A DNA stretch of 34,412 bases, taken from Myxococcota bacterium. GTDB lineage: Bacteria > Myxococcota > JAJVIH01. Numbering within the stretch: the first letter of the stretch is position 1; each line of letters opens with the position of its first letter. Location: contig JAJVIH010000075.1 in the NCBI GenBank assembly GCA_022072125.1, forward strand, positions 1-34,412. The letters are read 5' to 3'. Shown piece after piece: positions 3,379 to 31,491 of the stretch. The notes beneath the pieces are model-generated. The model worked only from the letters and a program-made list of their open reading frames with translations, was not told the DNA's origin and searched no databases. A program made the translations under genes and the position numbers.

Positions 3379-4461
3379 TTATTCCGAATCCTTGATCCAG
3401 ACGGCGATGCGATCCTCGATCGCCTGTTGCTGCCAGGAGCCAATCAATTTTTCCGGCAGGGGCTGTTGCTTGAGCAGCGGCTTGAGCGCGGTGTCAATGC
3501 GGTGCAGCGAAGCCTTGATGCGATCCTCGGGAATCTTGCCGTCTTCCACCGCGCGGGTCAGCGCCTCGATCGCCTGTTCCTGCCGTTCCTGATCGGCGCA
3601 GGCCAGGAACAGATCCACGCCGGCGTGAACGCCGCGGATGACGATTTCCTCCACCGGGAAATGGTTGGCGACAGCCTTCATGTCCAGGTCATCCGACACA
3701 ATCACGCCATGGAAATTCATCTTGTTGCGCAGCAGGCCGGTGAGGATGCGCTGCGAGAGCGTGGCGGGGTAATTGGGATCCAGCGCCGGATATTTCACGT
3801 GGGCGGTCATCAGCATGTCCATGCCCGCCTGGACCGCCATTTCGAAGGGTGCGATTTCGGTCTTCATCAGGCGCTCCAGCGGGTGATTCACCACCGGCAG
3901 TTCCAGATGCGAATCCTGGAAGGTGTCGCCATGTCCGGGGAAATGTTTGCCGCATGGCAACACGCCCGATTTGCGCAGCCCCTGGAAAAACGCGATGGCG
4001 AGTTGCGCGACCTTGAGCGGATTGGATGAAAACGCCCGGTCTCCAATCACCGTGTTGGCGGGGTTGGTGAAGACGTCCAGCACCGGCGCGAAATTCACAT
4101 TGAAGCCCAGTTCGCGGAGTTCAAGTCCCTGAAACTCGGCCACCGCGCGAACCAGCCCGCTGTGCTTGATATTGCCCAGCCGCCGCATGGGCGGCAGGTT
4201 GATGAACGGCGGTTTCAACCGCGCCACCCGGCCGCCTTCCTGATCCACGCCGATCATCAAGGGAAGCGCGTTGTGGCTGTAGGAGCCCAGTTCGCTGTTC
4301 AACTCGCGCACCTGCTCCAGGCTCTGGATATTGCGCGAAAACAGGATGACGCCGCTGATCTGGTTGCGCACCAGCAACTTCATCAACTGGGTGTCCACCT
4401 CCGGACCGGGAAAGCCGGCCACAAACAGGCGTCCGACGTGGTAGGATATTTCCTTTTTCAT
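3379..4461 (-). CDS. nagZ: Beta-N-acetylhexosaminidase NagZ (GH3), cell-wall recycling
   Basis: This 360-residue glycoside hydrolase family 3 enzyme removes GlcNAc from GlcNAc-anhydroMurNAc-peptides in the cytoplasm during peptidoglycan recycling. Visible motifs are LMIGVDQEGGRVARL (68-82), NFAPVLDV (123-130), the substrate loop KHFPGHGDT (172-180) with the acid/base His H178, and SDDLDM (256-261) with nucleophile D257. No signal peptide is seen, as expected. I use the ATG at 4461 because it forms an ATGA overlap with the stop of the upstream acyl-CoA dehydrogenase; an in-frame ATG at 4482 would add seven residues. The pairing with a fatty-acid enzyme is not typical of nagZ and probably only reflects shared transcription. 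Confidence 0.95.
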   Translation of the reverse strand: MKKEISYHVGRLFVAGFPGPEVDTQLMKLLVRNQISGVILFSRNIQSLEQVRELNSELGSYSHNALPLMIGVDQEGGRVARLKPPFINLPPMRRLGNIKHSGLVRAVAEFQGLELRELGFNVNFAPVLDVFTNPANTVIGDRAFSSNPLKVAQLAIAFFQGLRKSGVLPCGKHFPGHGDTFQDSHLELPVVNHPLERLMKTEIAPFEMAVQAGMDMLMTAHVKYPALDPNYPATLSQRILTGLLRNKMNFHGVIVSDDLDMKAVANHFPVEEIVIRGVHAGVDLFLACADQERQEQAIEALTRAVEDGKIPEDRIKASLHRIDTALKPLLKQQPLPEKLIGSWQQQAIEDRIAVWIKDSE

Positions 4462-6158
4462 GCCCGGCCGAACGGATGGCAAACCGTGTCATACTCACCA
4501 CGGATGGCATCCAATGACAACGCTTCGCCGGTGACGAACAGGGAAATGTACCATTCCGGAACGAGTGCGGAACGGCGATCGCCGGGCGACGCCAGCGCGC
4601 ACAACAGGCTCGCCTTCATCAGGTGGGCGGCCTGTGGGGCCAGCCGGCCGGCCAGCAACTGGGCTTCTTCCGCCGAAGCCTTGCCGGATTCCGCCAGTTG
4701 GCTTTCCACGCGCGCGGCGGCTTCCGCCAGCGCCCGCAGGCTGGAAGGGGACACCAGTTTCGCCTCGCCGGCGCGCCGCAGGCAGGCGCGGACTTCGCCG
4801 GCTAGCGCCTCGCCGGCGCCCTCCTTGTGCAGCCCGCGCAGGAAATCCAGCTTCTGGATGTGGGCGGAGCCTTCCCAGATGGGCAGCACATGGGCGTCGC
4901 GGAGCAGCCGGGTGGTCACGAATTCGTTCACGTAGCCATTGCCGCCCAGGATATCCATGGCGGCCCAGGTGAAGCGCACCGCCTGATCCGCGGTGGTCAG
5001 TTTGCACAAGGGGGTGAGGGCGCGCACCAGCCGCTGTTCCCCGGCGTCGCCCGCGTCGCCGCGATCCAGAGCGTGAACGCAGCGGAAGACCAGCGCCATC
5101 GCCCCTTCGTATTCCAGATGAAGCTGGATGAGCTGTTCGCGCATCAGCGGATGTTGTTCGATCAGCGCGCCAAACGCGGAGCGGCGGGCGCAGTGGACCA
5201 GCGCCTCGTTCAGGGCCCGGCGCATGCACGCCAGCGACGCCACCGAGTTGTAGAGCCGCGACAGGTTCACCATCTCCGCCATGGTCTTGAAGCCGTGATC
5301 CAGACGGCCGATGGCGCGCGCGGCCGCTCCCTCCAGGGTGACTTCGCCGGTGGGCATGCTGCGCGTGCCGAATTTGTCCTTGAGGCGGTTGATCCGGTAG
5401 CGGTTGGGAGAGCCGTCCGGCAGGCGGCGGGACAGCAGGAACAGCCCCAGTCCGCGCGTGCCCGGCGGCGCGCCTTCCGGCCGCGCCAGCACCAGAATCT
5501 GATCCGCGTGGACGTTGGAGCAGAACCATTTGTCCCCGTGCAGCCGCCAGTGTTCGCCATCCCGGACCGCGCGGCAGGTGTTGGCGCCCACGTCGGATCC
5601 GCCCTGCTTCTCGGTCAGGAACATGGCTCCCTGGTGCAATTGTCCGTAGTCCCGGCTGACCAGATGGGGAATCACCTCGCGCTGGATTTCCGGCGCCGCG
5701 TGCCGCGCCAGCACGCGGGCCACGCCGTCGGTCATGCAGATGGGGCAATACAATCCCTGTTCCGACTGGGCGAAGACATATCCCTGGGCGAATTTGACGA
5801 GATGCGGCAGCGGATGCTCCACCCCGCCCAGCGCGGCGGGGTAATAATTCCCGATGATCCCCTCGCCGTAGGCCAGGCGCACCAGTTCCTCGTAGGCGCG
5901 GGAGCGGCGGATTTCATCCACCCGCTCGCCAAAGCGGTCATAGGGGATATGAACCGGGCCGTCGCGATCGGCCTCGTCGGCCAGATCGGCGCCGCGGGTT
6001 CCCGCCAGTTCGCCCATGCGAACGAGCAGGGGACGCGCCTGGTCCATCAGCGAGGCGCCGCCGAAATGCAGGAGAACCCGCTGCAGGACCGCGTCGGTCT
6101 CGAAATAGTTGAACCCCCGGGCGCTGGTGATGCGGTTGGCAGGCAAGGCTTGACTCAT
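4458..6158 (-). CDS. AidB-like acyl-CoA dehydrogenase
   Basis: A 566-residue FAD enzyme of the acyl-CoA dehydrogenase family, closest by motif to the AidB branch. LTEKQGGSDVGANT is at 181-194, HGDKWFCSN at 207-215, then RLKDKFGTRSMPTGEV (258-273) and ILGGNGYVNEF (403-413). LPIWEGSAHIQ (425-435) places the usual catalytic-base Glu at E429. The N-terminus (FNYFETDAVLQRVL) also resembles AidB, which binds DNA in E. coli; whether this one does is unknown. AidB-type enzymes are longer than ordinary short-chain dehydrogenases (about 380 residues), as here. The start at 6158 has a GGGAG 10 bases upstream. It is divergent from the aldehyde dehydrogenase gene, 72 bases apart, so both may answer to one regulator. 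Confidence 0.9.
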   Translation of the reverse strand: MSQALPANRITSARGFNYFETDAVLQRVLLHFGGASLMDQARPLLVRMGELAGTRGADLADEADRDGPVHIPYDRFGERVDEIRRSRAYEELVRLAYGEGIIGNYYPAALGGVEHPLPHLVKFAQGYVFAQSEQGLYCPICMTDGVARVLARHAAPEIQREVIPHLVSRDYGQLHQGAMFLTEKQGGSDVGANTCRAVRDGEHWRLHGDKWFCSNVHADQILVLARPEGAPPGTRGLGLFLLSRRLPDGSPNRYRINRLKDKFGTRSMPTGEVTLEGAAARAIGRLDHGFKTMAEMVNLSRLYNSVASLACMRRALNEALVHCARRSAFGALIEQHPLMREQLIQLHLEYEGAMALVFRCVHALDRGDAGDAGEQRLVRALTPLCKLTTADQAVRFTWAAMDILGGNGYVNEFVTTRLLRDAHVLPIWEGSAHIQKLDFLRGLHKEGAGEALAGEVRACLRRAGEAKLVSPSSLRALAEAAARVESQLAESGKASAEEAQLLAGRLAPQAAHLMKASLLCALASPGDRRSALVPEWYISLFVTGEALSLDAIRGEYDTVCHPFGRA

Positions 6159-6188
6159 GATAGAACTCCCGCGTTCCGGGTAAGAATC

Positions 6189-6199
6189 ACAAAGTTTGT
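6189..6199. promoter_or_regulatory. Palindrome in the divergent promoter region
   Basis: ACAAAGTTTGT is a perfect 5-bp inverted repeat around a central G. It sits nearly in the middle of the 72-base gap between the two divergent starts (6158 and 6231), in an AT-rich patch that contrasts with its surroundings. It could be an operator shared by both genes; no regulator gene is nearby. Confidence 0.35.
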
Positions 6200-6230
6200 A
6201 TCGCACCCCGGGAAAGGTGTCACGGTCAAA

Positions 6231-7721
6231 ATGGAGTTGCGCGGCAACTATATCAACGGTTCGTTCGGCGGCGCGGAAACCGCCGATCTTCTGCTGGAAC
6301 GCGAGGACCCGGCGGTGCTGGACGCGCCGCCCGCCCTGATCCCGGAAATCCGCGCCGACACGGACCGCGCGGTGGAAGCGGCGCGCGCCTCCTTCCGCGC
6401 CTGGGCCCGCCGCCCGCTGGAGGCCCGCATCGCCGCCGTGCGCTCCCTCTGCGCGGCGATGAAAAAGCGCCAGGAGGACATGGCCCAGGCCATCTCCCTC
6501 GACATGGGAAAACCGCTGTGGGAGGCGCGGCAGGAGGTCTCGACCGCTGTCGCCAAGGGAGCGGTGTCCATTGACGAAGGGCTTTCCCACACCCGGAATT
6601 TCCAGCCGCGGGGCCTGGACGGCGAATGCCTGTTCCGTCCCCATGGGGTGGCGCTGGTGCTGGGGCCGTTCAATTTCCCGGTTCATCTGCCCAACGGGCA
6701 TATCCTGCCGGCCTTGCTCGCTGGAAACACCATTGTCTTCAAACCCAGCGAAAGCGCGCCGCGCAGCGCCCAGGTCTACGCCGAATGCTGCCACGAGGCC
6801 GGCCTGCCGCCGGGCGTGTTCAACCTGGTGCAGGGGAGCGGGACCACCGGCGAGGCGCTGGTGCGGCATCCCGGCGTGGACGCGGTGATGTTCACCGGCA
6901 GTTACCAGGTGGGACGCGCCATCCAGCTTGCGCTGATTGACCGGCCGGGATGCATCGCCGCGCTGGAAATGGGCGGAAAAAACGCGGTGATCGTGATGGA
7001 CGACGCCGATCTGCGCCTCGCCGCCGCGGAGATTTTCACGGGCGCCTTCCTGACCAGCGGGCAACGCTGCTCGGGAACCAGCAGGGTGATCGTGATGGAG
7101 CCGGTGCGCTCGCGCCTGGTCAACGGCCTGCGCAACATGATCGAGAGCGTCCGCATCGGTTCGCCGCTGGATGAAACCGTTTTCATGGGGCCGCTGGCCA
7201 CCCGGCGGGGATACGAAAACTTCATCGCGCGCCGCCACATGGCCGCCAATGAAGGCGCCATTCCGCTCTGCGAGGGCGGCGTGATGACCGCCGCGGCCGA
7301 TGGCTATTACGTGCGGCCCTCCATGCATATGGTGATGGAGCGCAACCCGGAGAGCCTGTATCAGCGCGAGGAGTTGTTCGGTCCCGACATCGCCATCCAT
7401 GGCGTCACCTCGCTGGACGAAGCCATCCAGATCGCCAACGACAGCGACTACGGCCTGGCGCTCTCGGTCTTCACCAAACGCCGGGATGTTTTCCAGGAGG
7501 TCCAGATCAGCGGCCGCGCGGGCGTCATCAACTGGAACCGCTCGACGGTGGGGGCCTCGGCGCGGCTGCCATTCGGCGGCGTGGGCAAGTCGGGCAACCA
7601 CCGTCCCGCCGCGTTGTTCGCCTCGCAATATTGCGCCTGGCCCGTCGCCTCCATGTGGCGCCCGGAGGGAGATCAGTCCCTGACCTCTTATCCCGGCATG
7701 ACATTGCCCGGGGCCCTGTAA
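6231..7721 (+). CDS. AstD-like aldehyde dehydrogenase (succinylglutamate-semialdehyde dehydrogenase type)
   Basis: This 496-residue NAD(P)-dependent aldehyde dehydrogenase has GPFNFPVHLPNGH (145-157; N148 is the oxyanion Asn), VFTGS (220-224 region), LEMGGKN (245-251; general base E246) and SGQRCS (276-281; catalytic C280). AstD-specific features are the HLPNGHILPALLAGN stretch and the end motif GVGKSGNHRPAALFASQYCAWPVAS. AstD oxidises N-succinylglutamate semialdehyde in the arginine succinyltransferase pathway. No other ast genes are in the window, so the real substrate may differ. The ATG at 6231 has GGAAAGG about 13 bases upstream, a rather long spacing; the frame is open far upstream, but that part is antisense to the neighbouring gene and not protein-like. 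Confidence 0.85.
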   Translation: MELRGNYINGSFGGAETADLLLEREDPAVLDAPPALIPEIRADTDRAVEAARASFRAWARRPLEARIAAVRSLCAAMKKRQEDMAQAISLDMGKPLWEARQEVSTAVAKGAVSIDEGLSHTRNFQPRGLDGECLFRPHGVALVLGPFNFPVHLPNGHILPALLAGNTIVFKPSESAPRSAQVYAECCHEAGLPPGVFNLVQGSGTTGEALVRHPGVDAVMFTGSYQVGRAIQLALIDRPGCIAALEMGGKNAVIVMDDADLRLAAAEIFTGAFLTSGQRCSGTSRVIVMEPVRSRLVNGLRNMIESVRIGSPLDETVFMGPLATRRGYENFIARRHMAANEGAIPLCEGGVMTAAADGYYVRPSMHMVMERNPESLYQREELFGPDIAIHGVTSLDEAIQIANDSDYGLALSVFTKRRDVFQEVQISGRAGVINWNRSTVGASARLPFGGVGKSGNHRPAALFASQYCAWPVASMWRPEGDQSLTSYPGMTLPGAL

Positions 7722-7802
7722 GCGAGGTTTTCCATGGCGGAACGCCCGTTTCACCCGCCAGCATGTACGATCACACGCGCCTGATTCAGGAGACACCCCG
7801 TC

Positions 7803-9101
7803 ATGAGCCACAACCGGTACGTCCGCTCCCATGAACTGATGGCCCGCGCGGTCCGCTGCATTCCCGGCGGCGTCAACAGCCCCGTGCGCGCGTTCCGCGC
7901 GGTGGGCGGCAGTCCGGTGCTGATCGCTTCCGCGCGGGGCGCCTGGCTGACCGACGTGGATGGCGCCCGCTACGTGGATTACGTGGGCGCCTACGGACCG
8001 CATATCCTCGGGCACAACCATCCGGAGGTCGCCGCCGCCGCCGCCCGCGCCGCCGCGGACGGATTTTCCTTCGGCGCCAGCACGGAAGCCGAGGTGATGC
8101 TGGCCGAGGCGATTTGCGGCCGGGTTCCATCCGTGAAGATGGTCCGGCTGGTCAATTCGGGCACCGAAGCCGCCATGTCGCTGCTGCGGGTGGCGCGGGC
8201 CTTCACCAAACGCTCGCTGGTGGTGAAATTTGACGGACATTATCACGGCCACTGCGACTCGCTGCTGGTCGCGGCGGGTTCCGGCGCGGAGACCCTGGGC
8301 GTTCCCGATTCCCCCGGCGTGCCGGGAGAACTGGCGAAACTGACGGCGGTGCTGCCCTGGAACGATGAAAAGGCCGCGGCGGATTTTTTCCGCGCCCATG
8401 GCCAGGATGTCGCCTGCGTGATCGTCGAACCCATCGCCGGCAACATGGGCGTGGTTCCCCCCGCCCCGGGATTCCTGCAACTGCTGCGCATCCTGACCGC
8501 GCAATACCGCGCCATCCTGATCTTCGACGAGGTGATGACGGGCTTCCGCGTGCATCCCGGCGGCGCGCAGGCGCTGTTTGGAATCACGCCCGACCTGACC
8601 GCCATGGGCAAGGTGATCGGCGGCGGCCTGCCTCTGGCCGCCTATGGCGGGCACGAACAGATGATGGCCCTGGTGGCGCCGCTGGGTCCGGTCTATCAGG
8701 CAGGCACCCTGTCGGGGAATCCGCTCGCGGTGGCGGCGGGATTGGCGGCGCTGCAGGCGTTGACCCCCGCGGTGTATGAGCGGCTGGAAACCACTTCCGC
8801 CGCGGTGGCGGAAATCCTCTCCGGCGAGGCGAAAGCCGCCGGAGTTCCGGTTCAGGTGCAGCGGGCGGGCTCCATGCTCACGCCGTTTTTCAGCGAGCGG
8901 CCGGTCAACAACATCCAGGACGGCCGGGCGTGCCATCTGGCGCGCTTCCGGGCGTTTTTCCAGGCGTTGCTCGACAATGGCGTATTCATCCCGCCCAGCC
9001 AGTACGAGGCGTGGTTCGTTTCCGCCGCTCACGACGGCCAGGCGCTGGAGCATACGCGCGCCGCCGTGCGCAAGGCCATGCAGGCCGCCGCCGCCGGGTG
9101 A
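7803..9101 (+). CDS. hemL: Glutamate-1-semialdehyde 2,1-aminomutase HemL
   Basis: A 432-residue PLP enzyme that converts glutamate-1-semialdehyde to 5-aminolevulinate in the C5 route to haem. Motifs: CIPGGVNSPVRAF (19-31), NSGTEAAM (118-125), DGHYHGH (144-150), EPIAGNMG (209-216), FDEVMTGFR (241-249) and MGKVIGGGLP (268-277), where K270 should form the Schiff base. YQAGTLSGNP follows. Full length for the family. The ATG at 7803 has AGGAGA seven bases upstream. It follows the aldehyde dehydrogenase after 81 bases on the same strand; no other haem genes are next to it. Confidence 0.96.
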   Translation: MSHNRYVRSHELMARAVRCIPGGVNSPVRAFRAVGGSPVLIASARGAWLTDVDGARYVDYVGAYGPHILGHNHPEVAAAAARAAADGFSFGASTEAEVMLAEAICGRVPSVKMVRLVNSGTEAAMSLLRVARAFTKRSLVVKFDGHYHGHCDSLLVAAGSGAETLGVPDSPGVPGELAKLTAVLPWNDEKAAADFFRAHGQDVACVIVEPIAGNMGVVPPAPGFLQLLRILTAQYRAILIFDEVMTGFRVHPGGAQALFGITPDLTAMGKVIGGGLPLAAYGGHEQMMALVAPLGPVYQAGTLSGNPLAVAAGLAALQALTPAVYERLETTSAAVAEILSGEAKAAGVPVQVQRAGSMLTPFFSERPVNNIQDGRACHLARFRAFFQALLDNGVFIPPSQYEAWFVSAAHDGQALEHTRAAVRKAMQAAAAG

Positions 9102-9225
9102 TGCGCGCGACCGCGATGAAAGTCCGGAGTCCCACGGCGGATGTGGAATGGCGCCGCGCGAAACCACCTCCACGATCTTGGCCGGGCGGGCGTTCCGTGA
9201 GAAATTGATCGCCCGCGGACAATCC

Positions 9226-9690
9226 ATGAACCATGCGCTCTCATATCCACCCGGTCCGGTATTGGCGCTTGACGTGGGTTCCAGAACCATCGGAACCGCC
9301 GTCAGCGACGCGGGCGGGACCATCGCCAGTCCGCTGAAGGTCATCGAACGCAAGAGCATCGCCAGGGACTGCGAGGCGATACTGCGGTTGATGGCCGGTT
9401 ACGAAGCCCGGCTGGTGGTCATTGGCCTGCCGCTGAACATGAGCGGATCCGAGGGCGGCGCGGTCAAACGCAGCCGGGATATCGGCCAGGCGCTGGCGGC
9501 GGCCGGGGCCGCCGTTGAATATGAAGACGAACGCATGAGCACCCAGGCGGTGGAGCGCATGCTGATTGGCGCGGATGTCAGCCGCCAGAAGCGGAAGGAC
9601 GTGGTGGACAAACTGGCCGCGTGTTACATCCTGCAGGGATATCTGGATCGCATCCGCACCGCCCGCGCGGAAGGGGGGGAAGAACCGTGA
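9226..9690 (+). CDS. ruvX: RuvX/YqgF family Holliday-junction resolvase-like protein
   Basis: 154 residues with the RNase H-like YqgF fold: LALDVGSRTIGTAVSD (13-28, first catalytic Asp D16), VIGLPLNMSGSEG (65-77), YEDERMSTQAVERML (99-113) and RKDVVDKLAACYILQGYL (123-140, late Asp D128). In E. coli the family is involved in 16S rRNA 5' processing, and in mycobacteria it resolves Holliday junctions. The start at 9226 gives a normal length; an upstream in-frame ATG near 9148 would add about 26 residues and neither has a strong ribosome site. The stop overlaps the GTG start of mltG (GTGA), a common gene pair in proteobacteria-like genomes. Confidence 0.92.
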   Translation: MNHALSYPPGPVLALDVGSRTIGTAVSDAGGTIASPLKVIERKSIARDCEAILRLMAGYEARLVVIGLPLNMSGSEGGAVKRSRDIGQALAAAGAAVEYEDERMSTQAVERMLIGADVSRQKRKDVVDKLAACYILQGYLDRIRTARAEGGEEP

Positions 9691-24569: not shown

Positions 24570-25436
24570 TTACTGCTTGTCGTAGGTCACATCGAATTCA
24601 ACCACGCATTCCTTCGCGCCGGCGACGGAAGGCAGGTTGGTCAGGTAGATGCGGGCCTTGCCCGTGCCCTTGGCGGCCGTCCAGGTGATGGAGCCGGTCT
24701 CGATCGAGATGATATCCATCTGCTGCTTGTTGGAATCGCAGCTCATGGTGATCGCCTTTTTGGTCGTGCCGGTCTGCACCTGCTTGCCTTCCTTGGTCTT
24801 GTAGTCGCACTCGCCCTTCCAGCCGGCGCCCACGGGGGCCGCCGCTTCCTTGGTGACATTGCCGGGCTTGGTGCGCTTGTCCGCCGACTGGATCAGGTTC
24901 GGGCAATCGCTCTTGGTGGTCGTCAGGGTGCGCACCCAGGTTCCTTCCAGCTTGATGCCCGGATCGGCCTTTTCATCGCAGGCGGGCACCTTGCAGGCCT
25001 TGGTGGCCGGATCGATCATCGAATCCAGCGAGGGAGGCCAGTCGCCGGTTCCGCCGCCGGTGTCCGTTCCGCCGCCCGTATCCGCGGGCGCGGTGTCGGC
25101 GGGGCCGGCGTCCATGTCCGGACCGGTATCCGTGGCTCCACCCGTATCCGTGGCGCCCCCGCCGGTATCCGTGGTTCCACCACCGGTATCCGTTCCGCCG
25201 CCCGTGTCGGTGGTTCCACCGCCGGTATCGGCCGCGCCCCCGCCGGTGTCGGCGGCGCCGGCGTCGGGAGTGGCGGTTCCAGAGTCAGGTTTGGTTCCGC
25301 CGCCGGGTTTGCCCGCGTCGGCGGCGGCGTCGCTGGTTCCGCCCGCGTCGGATGTTTCGCTGTCGCCGCAGGCGGTCATCATCGCCACGGCGGCCAGCGC
25401 GGCCAGCAACGAGATCAAACGGATGGATTTGGACAT
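24570..25436 (-). CDS. Lipoprotein with TDTGG-repeat linker, unknown function
   Basis: 288 residues. Signal peptide with lipobox MTAC (C23), followed by an Asp/Ala/Gly/Thr spacer and a run of the six-residue unit TDTGGG with variants (residues 62-131), about eleven units, probably an extended stalk in the cell envelope. The C-terminal part (132-288) is a compact domain with six Cys (C148, C153, C178, C210, C233, C277), likely disulphide-bonded, and a final beta strand pattern; no family recognised. The ATG at 25436 is preferred over the one at 25451 because AAAGGA lies eight bases upstream of it. Upstream is a TTGACA promoter-like element and downstream a clear terminator, so it is a single-gene unit. 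Confidence 0.85.
   Translation of the reverse strand: MSKSIRLISLLAALAAVAMMTACGDSETSDAGGTSDAAADAGKPGGGTKPDSGTATPDAGAADTGGGAADTGGGTTDTGGGTDTGGGTTDTGGGATDTGGATDTGPDMDAGPADTAPADTGGGTDTGGGTGDWPPSLDSMIDPATKACKVPACDEKADPGIKLEGTWVRTLTTTKSDCPNLIQSADKRTKPGNVTKEAAAPVGAGWKGECDYKTKEGKQVQTGTTKKAITMSCDSNKQQMDIISIETGSITWTAAKGTGKARIYLTNLPSVAGAKECVVEFDVTYDKQ
25044..25253. repeat. Short tandem repeat coding TDTGGG
   Basis: An 18-base unit, with variations, repeats through this stretch inside the lipoprotein gene (forward strand reads like GGTATCCGTGGTTCCACC). Copy number may vary between strains through slippage. It is protein-coding and not a CRISPR array, because the units are adjacent with no unique spacers. 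Confidence 0.7.
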
Positions 25437-25490
25437 GGTTTTTCCTTTCATTGCGCCGGACCTTCCGGCGTCCAGCGCCCCACGGGGGGG

Positions 25491-25519
25491 ATTTGTGTCG
25501 AAAAAGCGTACCGTGTCAA
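25491..25519 (-). promoter_or_regulatory. Possible promoter of the TDTGG-repeat lipoprotein
   Basis: On the minus strand a consensus TTGACA (25519-25514) is followed after 17 bases by ACAAAT (25496-25491), a weak -10. Transcription would begin about 50 bases before the ATG at 25436. Confidence 0.4.
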
Positions 25520-25560
25520 GAAGATGACAATCTCCGCTCCGAATCCGGCCTCCTCCCGCC

Positions 25561-28212
25561 TCAAGGCAATACGGAAGACGGGTCCAGCCAGGTGGTCAGG
25601 TTCTTGCGCAGCGAAGCCGCGACATCCTGCATCTGCGGCGGACGGCCCAGTTCCACCGCCATCGAGGTCACCGCGCGATCCTTGATGCCGCAGGGCACGA
25701 TATACTCGAAATGGGCCAGGTTGGGCGTCACGTTCAGCGCCGCGCCATGGGAGGACACCCCCTTGAAGAGGTGGAAGCCCAGGGCCACGATCTTGCGGTC
25801 GTTCACCCACACCCCCGGATGTTCGGGGTCCCGCTTGCCGGTGATTTTGAACTCGCCCAGCGTGTCAATCATCGCCTGCTCCACGCGCGAGACAAAATCC
25901 GGCACGCGGAAGCCGCGGCGGCGGTAATCAATCACCAGGTAGACCACCATCTGGCCCGGGCCATGGTAGGTGACATCGCCGCCGCGCGTGGATTTCACGA
26001 GCTGGATGCCGCGCTTTTGCAGCAGGTCTTCATCCGCCAGCAGGTTTTCCGGCGCGGCGCGGCGGCCCAGGGTGATCACGGGGGGGTGTTCGAGCAGGTA
26101 AATCGCCTCGGGGGCCTTTTCCTCGATGACCAGATCGCGGCGTTCCTGCATGACCGTCATCGCTTCGTCGTAGCCGATCAGCCCCAGTTCAAACCATTCG
26201 ATGGGGCCGTTGAAGCCGGCCGCGGGCGTCTCCGCCGTTTCGGCGGGCGCGGCGGCTTCCGGCAAGGCGGATGGAGCGCCGGACTCCGCCCCGGTGGTGA
26301 CCGATTCATTGCGGCTTTCCGAGGGCGCCGCTTCCGTCATGTCCGGGGGCGGAGCCACCGGCGCGCGTCCCAACGGCTTGAAAGAGGGATTGCTGTCCGC
26401 GCGCGGGACCGCGGCGCGGTCTTCTTCCGGAGCCCCGGCGCGCTGGCGATCACCGCGATCCGCGCGGTCGCCACGGTCAAAACGATCATTGCGGTCGCGG
26501 CGATCCCGTCCGCCTTCCCGTTCGGGGCGTTCGCTCCGTTCCGGACGTTCGGGGCGATCCGCGCGCTCTCCCCGCTCGGGGCGATCATTGCGATCCCCCC
26601 TGTCCGCGCGTTCGGGGCGTTCCCAACGGCCGCCTGCTTCGGTTGGGGCCGCTTCGGCCGCGCGCGGGGCCAATCCGCTGGCGGCGTGCAGGCGCTCGAA
26701 CAATTCTTCATCCAGCACCTTCAGACCGCCCGCCGGGGCGGTGAAAGCAACCCCCAGGGTTTCCATGCGGCGGATCAGCCAGTCTCCCGTATAACGGAAA
26801 ACGGGCGCGCCCGCGCGCGCGCAGGCCTGGACGGCGCTGTCCTGGAATCCATTGAGCGACAGCACCGCCGCCACCGCGGCGTTGCGTTCGGCCAGCAGCG
26901 ACAGGAACTTCTGGATATCGCGGTCCGCCAGTCCCTCGGTCCGCCGGGACACGTAGACGGCGGCGTTGAGCTTTTCATCTCCGGAAGACCAGGCGGTGCT
27001 CATCTCCCATGAATCCTCGCGGCTCCAGTTGAGGGCGAAGCCCTGATAGCCCGACAGCGCCAGCACATGCTGGGCCAGCGCCAGGAAGATGTCGCCATGC
27101 AGGCCGTTCAGCCGCTGGATGGCGCGGAAGCGGTTGGCGCCAATCAGGCGGCGCTGGGCTTCCGCGGCGGCGCGGGCCAGGCGCTGGGTCTGCTCGTGTA
27201 CAAACCAGGTGGTCAGTTCGACCGCCGGGGCGGCGTTCAGCCGGAGTTCCGGCAAATCGCCGGCTTCGCGCGCCGTCTGCTCGTGCCGCAGAATGGCGAA
27301 GACAAGCGCCGCCTCGGCGGACCCCGCCGGCGGCAGCACGCCCTCCTCCCGGAGAGCGCGGGCGCATTCCTGCAGCGGAACCGGATTGCGGAAGGGGCTG
27401 GCCCGCAACATGCGGATCAACGCCTCGGCGATGGGGTTCGCGGGTCCCTCGGGAGCGGCCTGAAACTCCATGCGGCGCGGCCGGTCGCCGCGATCCCCGC
27501 GATCGAAGCGATCGCTCCGATCATTGCGGTCGCCGCGGTCGAAACGGTCATTCCGTTCATTGCGATCGCGGTCGCCGCGTTCGCGATCCGGGCGATCCCC
27601 GCGATCATTCCGGTCTCCGCGATCGCCGCGTTCATAACGATCGCCGCGATCCCGGCCTTCGCGGGGGCGGTCCTCGCCGCGTTCGCGGTTGTTGTCGCGA
27701 TCGCGGAAGCCTTCGCGTTCGCGGGTGCGTTCGCGCTGGGGCGGCGGGCTTTCCGGCGCCGGGACGGCGGCGGGCTCTCCATCCACGGGGGCCGGGGTTT
27801 CCGCGGGCGCGGCGGCGGGCTGTTCAATGGAGACCGCTTCCGCGGCCTTGGCGGCGGCGGCCTGCTCGGCCATCTGCCGTTCATATTCCTTGATGCGCTG
27901 GTTGGCCTCGCGGGCGCGGCGTTCGTTTTCCCGCATGCGGGCATCCTCTTCCTGGCGGCGGGCGCGATCGGCCAGCATCTCCTCGCGGATGGAGTCATCC
28001 AGGCTGTAGATGCCCGGCTTGACCTCGACGAGCAGGCGCTTGTCCCCCGGCCGCTGCATCAGGGCCTCCAGGCGGGCCCCCATCACGGCTTCGGGCGATT
28101 TGCCCACATGCGAGAGCAGGTTTTTGCGGACGGCGATTTCAGCGATTTTTTTGTAGTGGAGCGGACGGCCTGCTTCCAGCAGGACCTCCACGGCGGCGTC
28201 GGTGAATGTCAT
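25561..28212 (-). CDS. HARE-HTH / Arg-Asp repeat / Mrr-like pseudo-nuclease / LipB fusion
   Basis: One open frame of 883 codons, numbered from ATG 28212. Residues 1-72 are a HARE-HTH winged helix (AGRPLHYKKIAEIAV, then VEVKPGIYSL). Residues 78-130 are a charged helix, 160-247 an Arg/Asp block of GDR/NDR units, and 362-492 an Mrr-type nuclease-like fold (LSGYQGFAL ... GDWLIRRMETLGV). There the usual QxK of the active site is Tyr-Val-Ser (S422), so activity is probably lost. Residues 529-592 are a second Arg/Asp block and 600-668 a Pro/Ala/Glu linker. Residues 669-883 are a full octanoyltransferase LipB: RGGDVTYHGPGQ (743-754), K807, H822 and catalytic C841 in VPCG. LipB moves octanoyl from acyl carrier protein to lipoyl domains. 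An in-frame ATG at 26340 could make LipB alone, but its ribosome site is weak. ATG 28212 is preferred to TTG 28236. Confidence 0.8.
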   Translation of the reverse strand: MTFTDAAVEVLLEAGRPLHYKKIAEIAVRKNLLSHVGKSPEAVMGARLEALMQRPGDKRLLVEVKPGIYSLDDSIREEMLADRARRQEEDARMRENERRAREANQRIKEYERQMAEQAAAAKAAEAVSIEQPAAAPAETPAPVDGEPAAVPAPESPPPQRERTREREGFRDRDNNRERGEDRPREGRDRGDRYERGDRGDRNDRGDRPDRERGDRDRNERNDRFDRGDRNDRSDRFDRGDRGDRPRRMEFQAAPEGPANPIAEALIRMLRASPFRNPVPLQECARALREEGVLPPAGSAEAALVFAILRHEQTAREAGDLPELRLNAAPAVELTTWFVHEQTQRLARAAAEAQRRLIGANRFRAIQRLNGLHGDIFLALAQHVLALSGYQGFALNWSREDSWEMSTAWSSGDEKLNAAVYVSRRTEGLADRDIQKFLSLLAERNAAVAAVLSLNGFQDSAVQACARAGAPVFRYTGDWLIRRMETLGVAFTAPAGGLKVLDEELFERLHAASGLAPRAAEAAPTEAGGRWERPERADRGDRNDRPERGERADRPERPERSERPEREGGRDRRDRNDRFDRGDRADRGDRQRAGAPEEDRAAVPRADSNPSFKPLGRAPVAPPPDMTEAAPSESRNESVTTGAESGAPSALPEAAAPAETAETPAAGFNGPIEWFELGLIGYDEAMTVMQERRDLVIEEKAPEAIYLLEHPPVITLGRRAAPENLLADEDLLQKRGIQLVKSTRGGDVTYHGPGQMVVYLVIDYRRRGFRVPDFVSRVEQAMIDTLGEFKITGKRDPEHPGVWVNDRKIVALGFHLFKGVSSHGAALNVTPNLAHFEYIVPCGIKDRAVTSMAVELGRPPQMQDVAASLRKNLTTWLDPSSVLP
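26437..26628. repeat. Second Arg/Asp-rich coding repeat block
   Basis: Codes for repeated DRGDR, DRNDR and RPER units between the nuclease-like part and the LipB linker. It resembles the first block at 27472-27735 in sequence, suggesting duplication or shared slippage. Confidence 0.6.
27472..27735. repeat. First Arg/Asp-rich coding repeat block
   Basis: Tandem short units (GDRGDRNDR and similar) encoded by CGC/GAC-type codons after the helical part. Low-complexity, highly charged and probably disordered; a candidate for RNA or DNA contact or condensate formation. Confidence 0.65.
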
Positions 28213-28232
28213 GTGCGGTGATTCCCATGTGC

Positions 28233-28967
28233 TCAAACCCCGAGAAACAGGCGTTTGGCGAAATTGGGGTGGAGTCCGGCGGCGAGGATCTTGCTGGCCT
28301 GCGCCTTGATGTCGTACTCCACCCTCCGGTATTCGAAGATTTTCTTTTCGGTGTCGAAAATTCCGTAGCAGGAGCGGTTGTCATAATCCCTTGGCTGTCC
28401 CACGCTGCCGACCGTGATGACATACGTATATCCGCGGCGGATGCCGAACGTGGAAGGCAAGACTTCATTCACGCCCAGTGTGGACAACGCAAACACCTTC
28501 GTCAGGTGGGAATGGCCAATAAAAACGACGGGCGCCAGTTCATTGAGATGCGGCTCGATGGCCCGCGCCTGCTCCGGCGAGAAGATGTACTCAAACTCGG
28601 CGGGTTGCACCGGCGACCCATGGCAGCACAGCACGTCCTCTCCCACCCGGTGGGTATAGGGGCGCTGGGACAGCCATTGCATGTGATCCAGCGAGATGTT
28701 TCTCGCGCACCAGTCGAGTGAATGGCGCGCCGCCTCGTAATAAAACGAGTAGTCCATCTTGCCGGCCACGGCGGCGTCATGGTTGCCCATCAGGCAGACA
28801 CAGCCCAGATCACGGATGATCTGGATGCATTCCCCGGGGTTGGCGCCGTATCCGACAATATCGCCCAGGCAGATCATCTGATCCACCCCCTGCGATTTCA
28901 TGTCTTCGAGGACCCTGGTCAGGGCTTCGACGTTGCCATGAATATCGGAAAACAAACCAAGCCGCAT
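28233..28967 (-). CDS. Calcineurin-like metallophosphoesterase
   Basis: A 244-residue two-metal phosphoesterase. Metal ligands: D8 and H10 (FSDIHGN), D36 (GDIVGYG, 35-41), N62 and H63 (GNHD), H116 (CHGSP), H152 and H154 (GHSH). The GDIVGYGANPGECI stretch and the overall size match a bacterial YfcE/ApaH-like group whose substrates are often unknown (nucleotides, protein phosphates or phosphodiesters). ATG 28967 puts the first strand at the very start; a GTG at 29048 would add 27 unconserved residues. The fused HARE-LipB gene begins 20 bases after this stop, so the two are probably one operon. Confidence 0.92.
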   Translation of the reverse strand: MRLGLFSDIHGNVEALTRVLEDMKSQGVDQMICLGDIVGYGANPGECIQIIRDLGCVCLMGNHDAAVAGKMDYSFYYEAARHSLDWCARNISLDHMQWLSQRPYTHRVGEDVLCCHGSPVQPAEFEYIFSPEQARAIEPHLNELAPVVFIGHSHLTKVFALSTLGVNEVLPSTFGIRRGYTYVITVGSVGQPRDYDNRSCYGIFDTEKKIFEYRRVEYDIKAQASKILAAGLHPNFAKRLFLGV

Positions 28968-29018
28968 GAACAGGCGGTCCAGCTCGCCGGCGCCAGGCGT
29001 TCGCCAGGAACACAAATT

Positions 29019-29041
29019 CGCGGAGCACACTTCGCTCCGCG
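29019..29041. repeat. Perfect 8-bp hairpin upstream of the phosphoesterase gene
   Basis: CGCGGAGC (29019-29026), 7-base loop, GCTCCGCG (29034-29041). It lies 52 bases before the ATG at 28967, so it could be a leader hairpin or mark the promoter region. No T-tract follows. Confidence 0.45.
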
Positions 29042-29217
29042 GTTCCACAGGTCAGCCTTTTGGGCGCTCCCATGATGACTGGATGGCAGCATAACGGCGG
29101 TCCAGGGTGGGGTCAAATGGATATGCAGGAAAGAGTCAAAAAATAGACTCTGACGGCTCCCGGACATGCCGCCGCCGGGACATGCCGTCACGGCTGACCT
29201 TGGCCATGGCGGCCATC

Positions 29218-29868
29218 CTACTTCGGCAAAGGGGTCAGCACATAGTCCACGCCGCCGCGTCCATGGCATCCGGCGCAGAGTTGCACGCCCAGGCCGTCCG
29301 CCACGAGTTTGGAGTCGTCGGTGGTGCTGAGCACCTCGTACCAGTACCAGCCTTTGCCGCCTGCGCTGTCATCCTGAACCTTCAACTCCACCGCCCAGCC
29401 GGTCAGGGTGGTCCCGTCGGCGGCGTACAGTTCCTTGACCGCCCCGGCGCCCCGGGGATGAGCGGACATGTTCTTTTCCAAGGACCCCGCCAGAATCGCG
29501 TTGAACCAGGTGCGCACCTTGCCGTGCGGGCCGCCCGAGGGATGCACCTCCGGTTCCGCCTTGAAATTCATGTATTTTTTTGCGGTCAGGAACGCCCACA
29601 ACGCCCCCGCCTCGCCGGGAATCACATCAGTGGGGCCGGGACCTCCGCCATCGCCGCCGGTTGCGCCGCCATCGCCGGGCGGGGGAGGCGAGGCGTCCTT
29701 GTCCATGCCGCCGGCGTCTTTCATGCCGCCGCTGTCCTTCATCATGTCGCCGGAATCCTTGCCGCCCCCGCTATCCGCGAGGGCCGCGGCGTCGCCGCTG
29801 CTGGAAGAACCGCCGCAGGCGGTCAGGGTCAAGAGGGACAAGATAATGCTCAGGGCTGGATATCGCAT
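29218..29868 (-). CDS. P460-like haem c lipoprotein
   Basis: A 216-residue lipoprotein: lipobox LTAC (C18), a Ser/Gly/Asp/Met linker (residues 19-82), then a domain of about 130 residues ending in the haem-binding motif CAGCH (C198, C201, H202), followed by GRGGVDYVLTPLP. EPEVHPSGGPHGKVRTWFN (105-123), GAVKELY and GWYWYEVL give the pattern of the cytochrome P460 fold, where the CxxCH also lies near the C-terminus. P460 proteins oxidise hydroxylamine or bind nitric oxide; whether this one does is open. The ATG at 29868 is six bases after GGAGG; the first ATG at 29874 touches the ribosome site and is less likely. Confidence 0.75.
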   Translation of the reverse strand: MRYPALSIILSLLTLTACGGSSSSGDAAALADSGGGKDSGDMMKDSGGMKDAGGMDKDASPPPPGDGGATGGDGGGPGPTDVIPGEAGALWAFLTAKKYMNFKAEPEVHPSGGPHGKVRTWFNAILAGSLEKNMSAHPRGAGAVKELYAADGTTLTGWAVELKVQDDSAGGKGWYWYEVLSTTDDSKLVADGLGVQLCAGCHGRGGVDYVLTPLPK

Positions 29869-30141
29869 GGCCATCCTCCGGGTTTGGGCGCGAACCTTTG
29901 CATATTCATACGATTCCGGCGGCCCGGCTGTTACACGGCCCGGCCGGTTTTTTCGCCCTGTGATGGTCTGGGTGATGGGTTGACCCGGTCCCCGCGCCAT
30001 GAACGGCTCGCGTCCGGCGCCGATCCATCGCCATCCTCCCCGCTCTTTCCTGGAATCATGGGGGGATGGCGGCGGTCCGGCCCATCCCGTGAAATTGCTC
30101 CCGGCGCGGCGGGATGCGAAACTGCCCGCCAGGGAACGGGT

Positions 30142-31491
30142 ATGCAATCATCCCAACCATCCTGGGCGGTGCGCCTGCGGCTGCCCTTCGTGCTGACCGT
30201 GGCGGTGCTGTTGGCGTGGCTGGCCATCCGCCTGGCGCCTGTATTGTACCCCGCGTACCTGGGCATGGTGCTGGCCTTCGCCCTGGATGCGCCGGTCACC
30301 GCGCTGGAAGGCCGCGGCATCTCCCGGTCCATGGGCGTGCTGGTGATCATGGCGGTGTTCAGCATCGCCATTCTGGTGTTTGGTTTCTACGCGGCGCCCA
30401 TTCTGGCGGCGGAAATCACCGATCTGGCCACGCGCTTTCCATCGTATATCCAGGGCGTGCAGGTATTTGTTTTCCAGACCGCCATTCCGTGGCTGAACCA
30501 GCATTTGCGCCTTCACATCCCGGAAAACATCAATGAACTGCAGGAATTGCTCGGCGACGACATCAAACAGTCGGTCTCCGACCTGCTGTCGGTTTCGGGC
30601 GCCGGAGTGGGCGCGGCGGCGCGCGGGGCCTTTGGCGTGGTGGGAACCGTCTTCCAGTTGGCGTTGACCCCCCTGTTCATGTTTTTCTTTCTGAGGGACT
30701 TCGCCGAGATCAAGGGAAAGGTGGTGGAACTCGTGCCGCCCCGCTACCGCAACAAAACGCAGGACATTGGACATGAAGTGCTGGACGCGCTCTCCGGCTA
30801 CTTCCGCGGGATGTTCCTGGTGGCGGTCTGCCTCGCCTTCATCTATTCCATCGGATTGTCCATCGTCGGCCTGAAGATGGCGATGCTGATCGGCATCCTC
30901 ACCGGCATGATGTATTTCATTCCCTATGTGGGCGTGGCGATTGGCCTGATCCTGTCGCTGCTGATGTGCGTCATTCACCCCAACGGCTGGGGGCAGGTGA
31001 TTGGCGTGCTGGCCGTGTTCGGCGTGGCCCAGGTGGTGGAAGGATTTTTCCTGACCCCGCGGCTGGTCGGCAACCGCATCGGGTTGTCGGACTGGCAGGC
31101 CATTCTGGCGGTGTTTTCCTTCGGCGCCTTGCTGGGATTTGTCGGCGTGGTGATCGCCCTGCCGGTGACCGCGGTGGCGAAAATCCTGGTGAAACGGCTC
31201 TTCGCCGCCTACCGCGCCAGCGATCTCTTCGACGAAACCGAGGACTCCGACCCCGCCGGCTGGCTGCTGCCGCCGCCCCGCCGCAACACCCAGACCTTCG
31301 TCCGGACGCCTTCGCCCGATGCTCCATCCGGCGCCGCGCCCGCGGCGGATGCTCCACCACCCGCCGTGGAATCCGGCCAACCGCCGGCCCCCGGGGCGGA
31401 AACACCCGCCTCCGCCGCGGGCGAATCCTCCTCCCAGAACGCTCCGGGCGGCACGCCGCCGCTGGTCCAGCCCCACCGCACCGGCGGATGA
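30142..31491 (+). CDS. AI-2E family transporter (PerM-type membrane protein)
   Basis: A 449-residue polytopic membrane protein. Hydrophobic helices lie at about 15-50, 62-92, 160-185 and 215-345. The family motifs include TPLFMFFFLRDF (mid-protein), GYFRGMFLVAVCLAFIY, GMMYFIPYVGVAIG and VVEGFFLTPRLVGNRIGL, with the usual LxxAxxxFGALLGFVGVVIALP near the end. The family includes TqsA, an AI-2 exporter, but most members have other or unknown substrates. A Pro/Ala/Ser-rich cytoplasmic tail of about 75 residues (375-449) goes beyond the usual end and looks disordered. ATG 30142 follows AGGGA. It is divergent from the P460-like gene, 273 bases apart; the gap must hold both promoters but I see no clear boxes. 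Confidence 0.92.
   Translation: MQSSQPSWAVRLRLPFVLTVAVLLAWLAIRLAPVLYPAYLGMVLAFALDAPVTALEGRGISRSMGVLVIMAVFSIAILVFGFYAAPILAAEITDLATRFPSYIQGVQVFVFQTAIPWLNQHLRLHIPENINELQELLGDDIKQSVSDLLSVSGAGVGAAARGAFGVVGTVFQLALTPLFMFFFLRDFAEIKGKVVELVPPRYRNKTQDIGHEVLDALSGYFRGMFLVAVCLAFIYSIGLSIVGLKMAMLIGILTGMMYFIPYVGVAIGLILSLLMCVIHPNGWGQVIGVLAVFGVAQVVEGFFLTPRLVGNRIGLSDWQAILAVFSFGALLGFVGVVIALPVTAVAKILVKRLFAAYRASDLFDETEDSDPAGWLLPPPRRNTQTFVRTPSPDAPSGAAPAADAPPPAVESGQPPAPGAETPASAAGESSSQNAPGGTPPLVQPHRTGG

Follow-up and report, generated by a model that had tools for sequence, protein, structure and literature searches.

Does a single bacterial gene join a lipoylation enzyme to a DNA-binding-type protein and, if so, what would such a protein do? 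The gene in question lies on a contig from a Myxococcota bacterium (GCA_022072125.1, JAJVIH010000075.1), of which we analysed the whole stretch of 34,412 nucleotides, hereafter the window. It occupies positions 25561..28212 of the minus strand as one frame of 883 codons plus stop, with an ATG start whose MTF beginning is kept in homologues. From the N- to the C-terminus the frame encodes a HARE-HTH domain, a charged linker, a second winged helix, an Mrr-type fold, an RGDR-repeat tail, an Ala/Pro-rich joint and a LipB octanoyltransferase domain. A preliminary description had proposed one frame of this length holding a HARE-HTH, an Mrr-like fold and a complete LipB with its catalytic Cys and Lys; the frame proved to be uninterrupted, and each of the parts was confirmed by Pfam, NCBIfam, alignment or structural models.

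The HARE-HTH domain (residues 1-72; 27997..28212, minus strand) matches Pfam PF05066 with an E-value of 1.9e-14 and a score of 54.2 bits, above the cut-off of 25.9, and is 64% identical to that of L003, a homologue from another Myxococcota genome. It is followed in the translation by a coil, an Ala/Pro-rich stretch and a first RGDR-repeat linker (residues 73-252; 27457..27996, minus strand), and homologues carry a charged low-complexity linker at the equivalent place. RGDR-type repeats form two tracts, at residues ~161-252 and 521-605, on either side of the middle region; the second (26398..26652, minus strand) occupies the position of the charged C-terminal tail in the unfused homologues L004, L041 and L042.

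The middle region was modelled with AlphaFold using seven sequences. Residues 260-333 (27214..27435, minus strand) show the winged-helix-like element order H-H-H-E-E of a second, HARE-like winged helix, which fits a weak second HARE-HTH match in homologue L042. Residues 340-485 (26758..27195, minus strand), with pLDDT mostly ~80-95, correspond by model, Foldseek and alignment to an Mrr/restriction-endonuclease fold without the catalytic motif. The modification-dependent endonucleases MspJI and AspBHI take the top Foldseek ranks, with TM-scores that are low because each chain aligns only in part; searches of PDB sequences with the middle domain gave chance matches to ribosomal proteins or none. 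In the window protein the Pfam Mrr match is sub-threshold (E 0.21 with the whole protein, 0.039 with the domain alone) and Mrr_cat reaches 12.2-14.5 bits against a cut-off of 21, a cut-off that six homologues of equivalent arrangement (L003-L006, L041 and L042) pass. An alignment of these six with the window protein revealed that the catalytic D...[EQ]xK is gone in all seven; the window protein reads SWEMS...AVYVSRR, with YxS at the QxK position. The motif is intact in two HARE-Mrr proteins, L040 (GGVDV...VVQAKRH) and L043 (GGIDV...AIQVKRY). Because D...QxK is lost in every member, the HARE/inactive-Mrr group is, judging by sequence, a non-nuclease family. Its Myxococcota members L003-L006, L041 and L042 combine the HARE-HTH, the second winged helix and the inactive Mrr fold with long acidic or basic low-complexity stretches. 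The window protein thus shares with HARE-HTH plus Mrr restriction endonucleases an N-terminal HARE-HTH followed by an Mrr-type fold in equal order, whereas it lacks D...QxK and has long charged linkers, an extra winged helix and an appended LipB.

The LipB domain itself (residues 669-883; 25564..26208, minus strand) was assigned by Pfam, TIGR00214 and alignment. LplA-B_cat matches residues 681-872 with an E-value of 2.8e-42, and TIGR00214 (lipB) scores 156.1 bits, above its cut-off of 83.55. Lys807 (25792-25794, minus strand) and Cys841 (25690-25692, minus strand) align with those of free LipBs and of the LipB structure entry 2qht, the RGGDVTYHGPGQ motif is present, and LipB-type lipoyltransferases are the closest among solved structures. 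The domain is 33-44% identical to the other LipBs examined. In having the whole domain, both catalytic residues and the RGGDxTYHGPGQ motif, the window copy is a LipB (TIGR00214, PF21948) like any other; it differs in lying C-terminal to a DNA-binding-type protein of ~665 residues, whereas the usual LipB is a free protein of ~215-240 residues.

How widespread is this arrangement? No other genome in the comparison belongs to the host's order, and the relatives share only the phylum with it. LipB was found in 16 of 18 relatives, in none of them fused to HARE, and HARE proteins occur apart from LipB in four of the 18. A separate peptide-pattern scan of genome contigs located four HARE-Mrr loci. 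No HARE-LipB fusion was found in the 18 relatives or in three further homologue genomes, a thin sampling; a plasmid search returned free LipBs only, literature searches found no report of such a fusion, and it is known from one genome only. Two relatives (G007 and G014) encode a LipB followed in one frame by a Nudix-like domain, the latter assigned by eye (L011 and L013).

The HARE-Mrr gene of L003 (REDH01000043.1, Myxococcota) terminates in TGA and, after 9 nt, the ATG of a lipB gene follows, all in one frame. The other three HARE-Mrr genomes have their LipB elsewhere. The preliminary description had taken homologues that are always split as a sign against the fusion; every homologue found so far is indeed split, so that the fusion is local to the host lineage rather than false, and it is probably lineage-restricted. 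Its claim of a true fusion as opposed to a frame error was upheld, and is strengthened by the unfused L003 pair.

In the trees, the window LipB groups with the L003 LipB with moderate support (91/82) and long branches. For the HARE-Mrr half the sister was not resolved, with no significant grouping with any homologue (45/4). An origin of the window LipB by recent duplication of the other LipB of the host was rejected, as the AU test excludes a clade of the two (p 0.017). Since L003 has the pair unfused and the two LipBs group together, the reading we favour, and consider reasonably probable, is that two once adjacent genes have truly fused, giving a LipB end that would transfer octanoyl and a non-nuclease front end that would bind DNA or RNA polymerase. 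Against this account we weighed the single genome, the 45/4 support of the HARE-Mrr half and the long branches of both LipBs. The upstream parent gene would have encoded the HARE-HTH, charged linker, second winged helix, inactive Mrr fold and charged tail, and the downstream parent would have been lipB. As judged from gene order and trees, the simplest reading would be that HARE and lipB genes formed an old pair, which most lineages lost or split up and the host lineage fused; transfer of the pair and independent pairing are the alternatives.

Upstream of the fusion gene by 20 nt lies a calcineurin-like metallophosphatase (28233..28967, minus strand), and the two genes are probably co-transcribed. 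In L042 a 53% identical metallophosphatase precedes the HARE gene by 2.4 kb, and because of this shared neighbour the HARE half has probably kept its ancestral location, where LipB joined it. Near the fusion gene, at 24570-25451 and 29218-30147 (both minus strand), the window also encodes two lipoprotein-like proteins that contain stretches rich in Asp/Thr/Gly and match no Pfam family. Rfam matched no RNA element in 25000-29500. In relative G007, a gene that looks BirA-like by eye (L041:3053-4072) is located downstream of the HARE gene, a few genes away.

Is the fusion protein made whole? The Ala/Pro-rich joint (residues 606-668; 26209..26397, minus strand) contains two in-frame candidate starts, ATG625 (26338-26340) and TTG650, and there is some chance, though a limited one, that the frame is continuous while LipB is produced mainly as a separate protein starting at one of them, which would leave the fusion partly nominal. 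Both are possible starts because no accepted start in the window has a clear Shine-Dalgarno sequence either, and LipB is encoded separately in L003. Against this, the L003 LipB begins ~17 residues ahead of its domain as compared with ~47 for ATG625, no stop lies ahead of the candidates for translational coupling, and the codon preference for frame 0 persists in the joint. This preference was assessed with a codon-usage model trained on those window genes that have Pfam support: frame 0 ranks first of the forward frames between residues 401 and 775, other than at 561-605, the RGDR repeats, and over 601-668 it is preferred only modestly. The "normal coding composition" ascribed earlier to the linker therefore holds only in part: at 561-605, frame +1 scores equal to or above frame 0.

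The lipoylation genes of the host bear on what the protein could control. Besides the fusion gene, the scanned genes of the window included none recognised as a lipoylation gene; elsewhere the host genome encodes a second, distantly related LipB beside recA, and two lipA (L002, L035 and L036; contigs C20, C53 and C1). The fusion is therefore not the sole octanoyltransferase; if it does tie central carbon flux to nucleic-acid binding, as the preliminary description proposed, its control would extend to no more than a part of lipoylation. In the L003 genome lipA is present and no second LipB was found, which suggests that a LipB of the fusion type can serve as the only LipB.

BirA consists of a winged HTH joined to a biotin ligase, and the window protein likewise has, in architecture only, a DNA-binding winged helix N-terminal to a cofactor transferase. 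By analogy, its LipB end could sense the supply of octanoyl or lipoyl groups and alter DNA binding by the HARE/winged-helix end, with lipoylation or central-metabolism genes as targets that it may regulate. Such a lipoate counterpart of BirA, reporting octanoyl/lipoyl status to transcription, possibly for one of two LipA/LipB sets, is possible by this likeness of architecture, and we assign it a small chance. LipB is grouped with BirA in a single cofactor-transferase family (PMC10332631), and the duplication of lipA and lipB in the host makes a specialised LipB copy plausible. On the other side, linkers of ~150-190 residues speak against tight allostery, as the lack of recognised lipoylation genes among the scanned neighbours speaks against such a regulator. 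The window protein also differs from BirA in its HTH family, its extra Mrr fold and its very long linkers, and its enzyme is a transferase whereas that of BirA is an ATP-using ligase. As its catalytic domain is a LipB and not that of a biotin ligase, the protein is not a BirA and is at most BirA-like in working.

A second comparison concerns the front end. The RNA polymerase delta subunit is composed of a HARE-HTH and an acidic tail, and the window protein similarly begins with a HARE-HTH followed by a charged low-complexity stretch, one that is strongly acidic in L003. It is unlike delta in being much longer, in its further domains and in the mixed-charge RGDR composition of its linker.

A sequencing or assembly artefact is unlikely, since codon usage prefers frame 0 along most of the joint and the fusion gene has no exact DNA repeat longer than 16 nt, a length short enough to argue against a repeat-driven k-mer chimera. 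We give slight credence to such an artefact, be it a lost stop, an indel or a chimera within the RGDR repeats. The host genome is a draft assembly of 78 contigs, and frame +1, besides its scores over 561-605, stays open between about residue 497 and an ATGA at 625. Yet frame 0 encodes RGDR repeats of the first-linker type up to 605, frame +1 scores -9 to -14 past 605 and is poor from 591 to 625, where an indel followed by an ATGA overlap would need it, and gene order and strand are shared with L003.

A defence or restriction protein carrying LipB as effector or sensor is very improbable, and the link to defence suggested earlier finds no support: the protein is related in sequence to Mrr, and PADLOC matches PDC-S02 and mREase_IV in homologues L003/L004, but the nuclease motif is lost throughout the family while intact in L040 and L043, PADLOC finds nothing in the window protein, and no defence genes were recognised among the neighbours scanned. 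A phage origin was rejected, with no PHROG match and no relatives among viral contigs. A chance open frame was rejected because the two domains lie on one strand in one frame and L003 has the pair as well. Long open frames do arise cheaply in this GC-rich genome. A spurious frame of 1633 codons at 4458-9359 (minus strand) served as a comparison case: only its residues ~1070-1633 are a gene (an AidB-like acyl-CoA dehydrogenase), and the remainder seems to run antisense to other genes, among them one that is HemL-like (7803-9101).

Taken together, the fusion is real and built of known parts. Most likely, as its domains suggest, disordered linkers tie an active LipB to a protein that is no nuclease and associates with DNA or RNA polymerase. 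The protein would be made whole; its LipB end would move octanoyl from acyl carrier protein via Cys841 and Lys807 to lipoyl domains, and its front end, to go by domain type, would bind DNA or RNA polymerase without acting as a nuclease. The disordered linkers would let both ends work largely independently, so that localisation or co-production may be the main effect. Fusions and tightly spaced gene pairs hint at functional partnership, and the fusion together with the L003 pair is a hint that the HARE/inactive-Mrr protein works with lipoylation. Should regulation be involved, the protein would parallel BirA on the side of lipoate; otherwise it still illustrates clearly how adjacent genes can fuse by way of a disordered tail.
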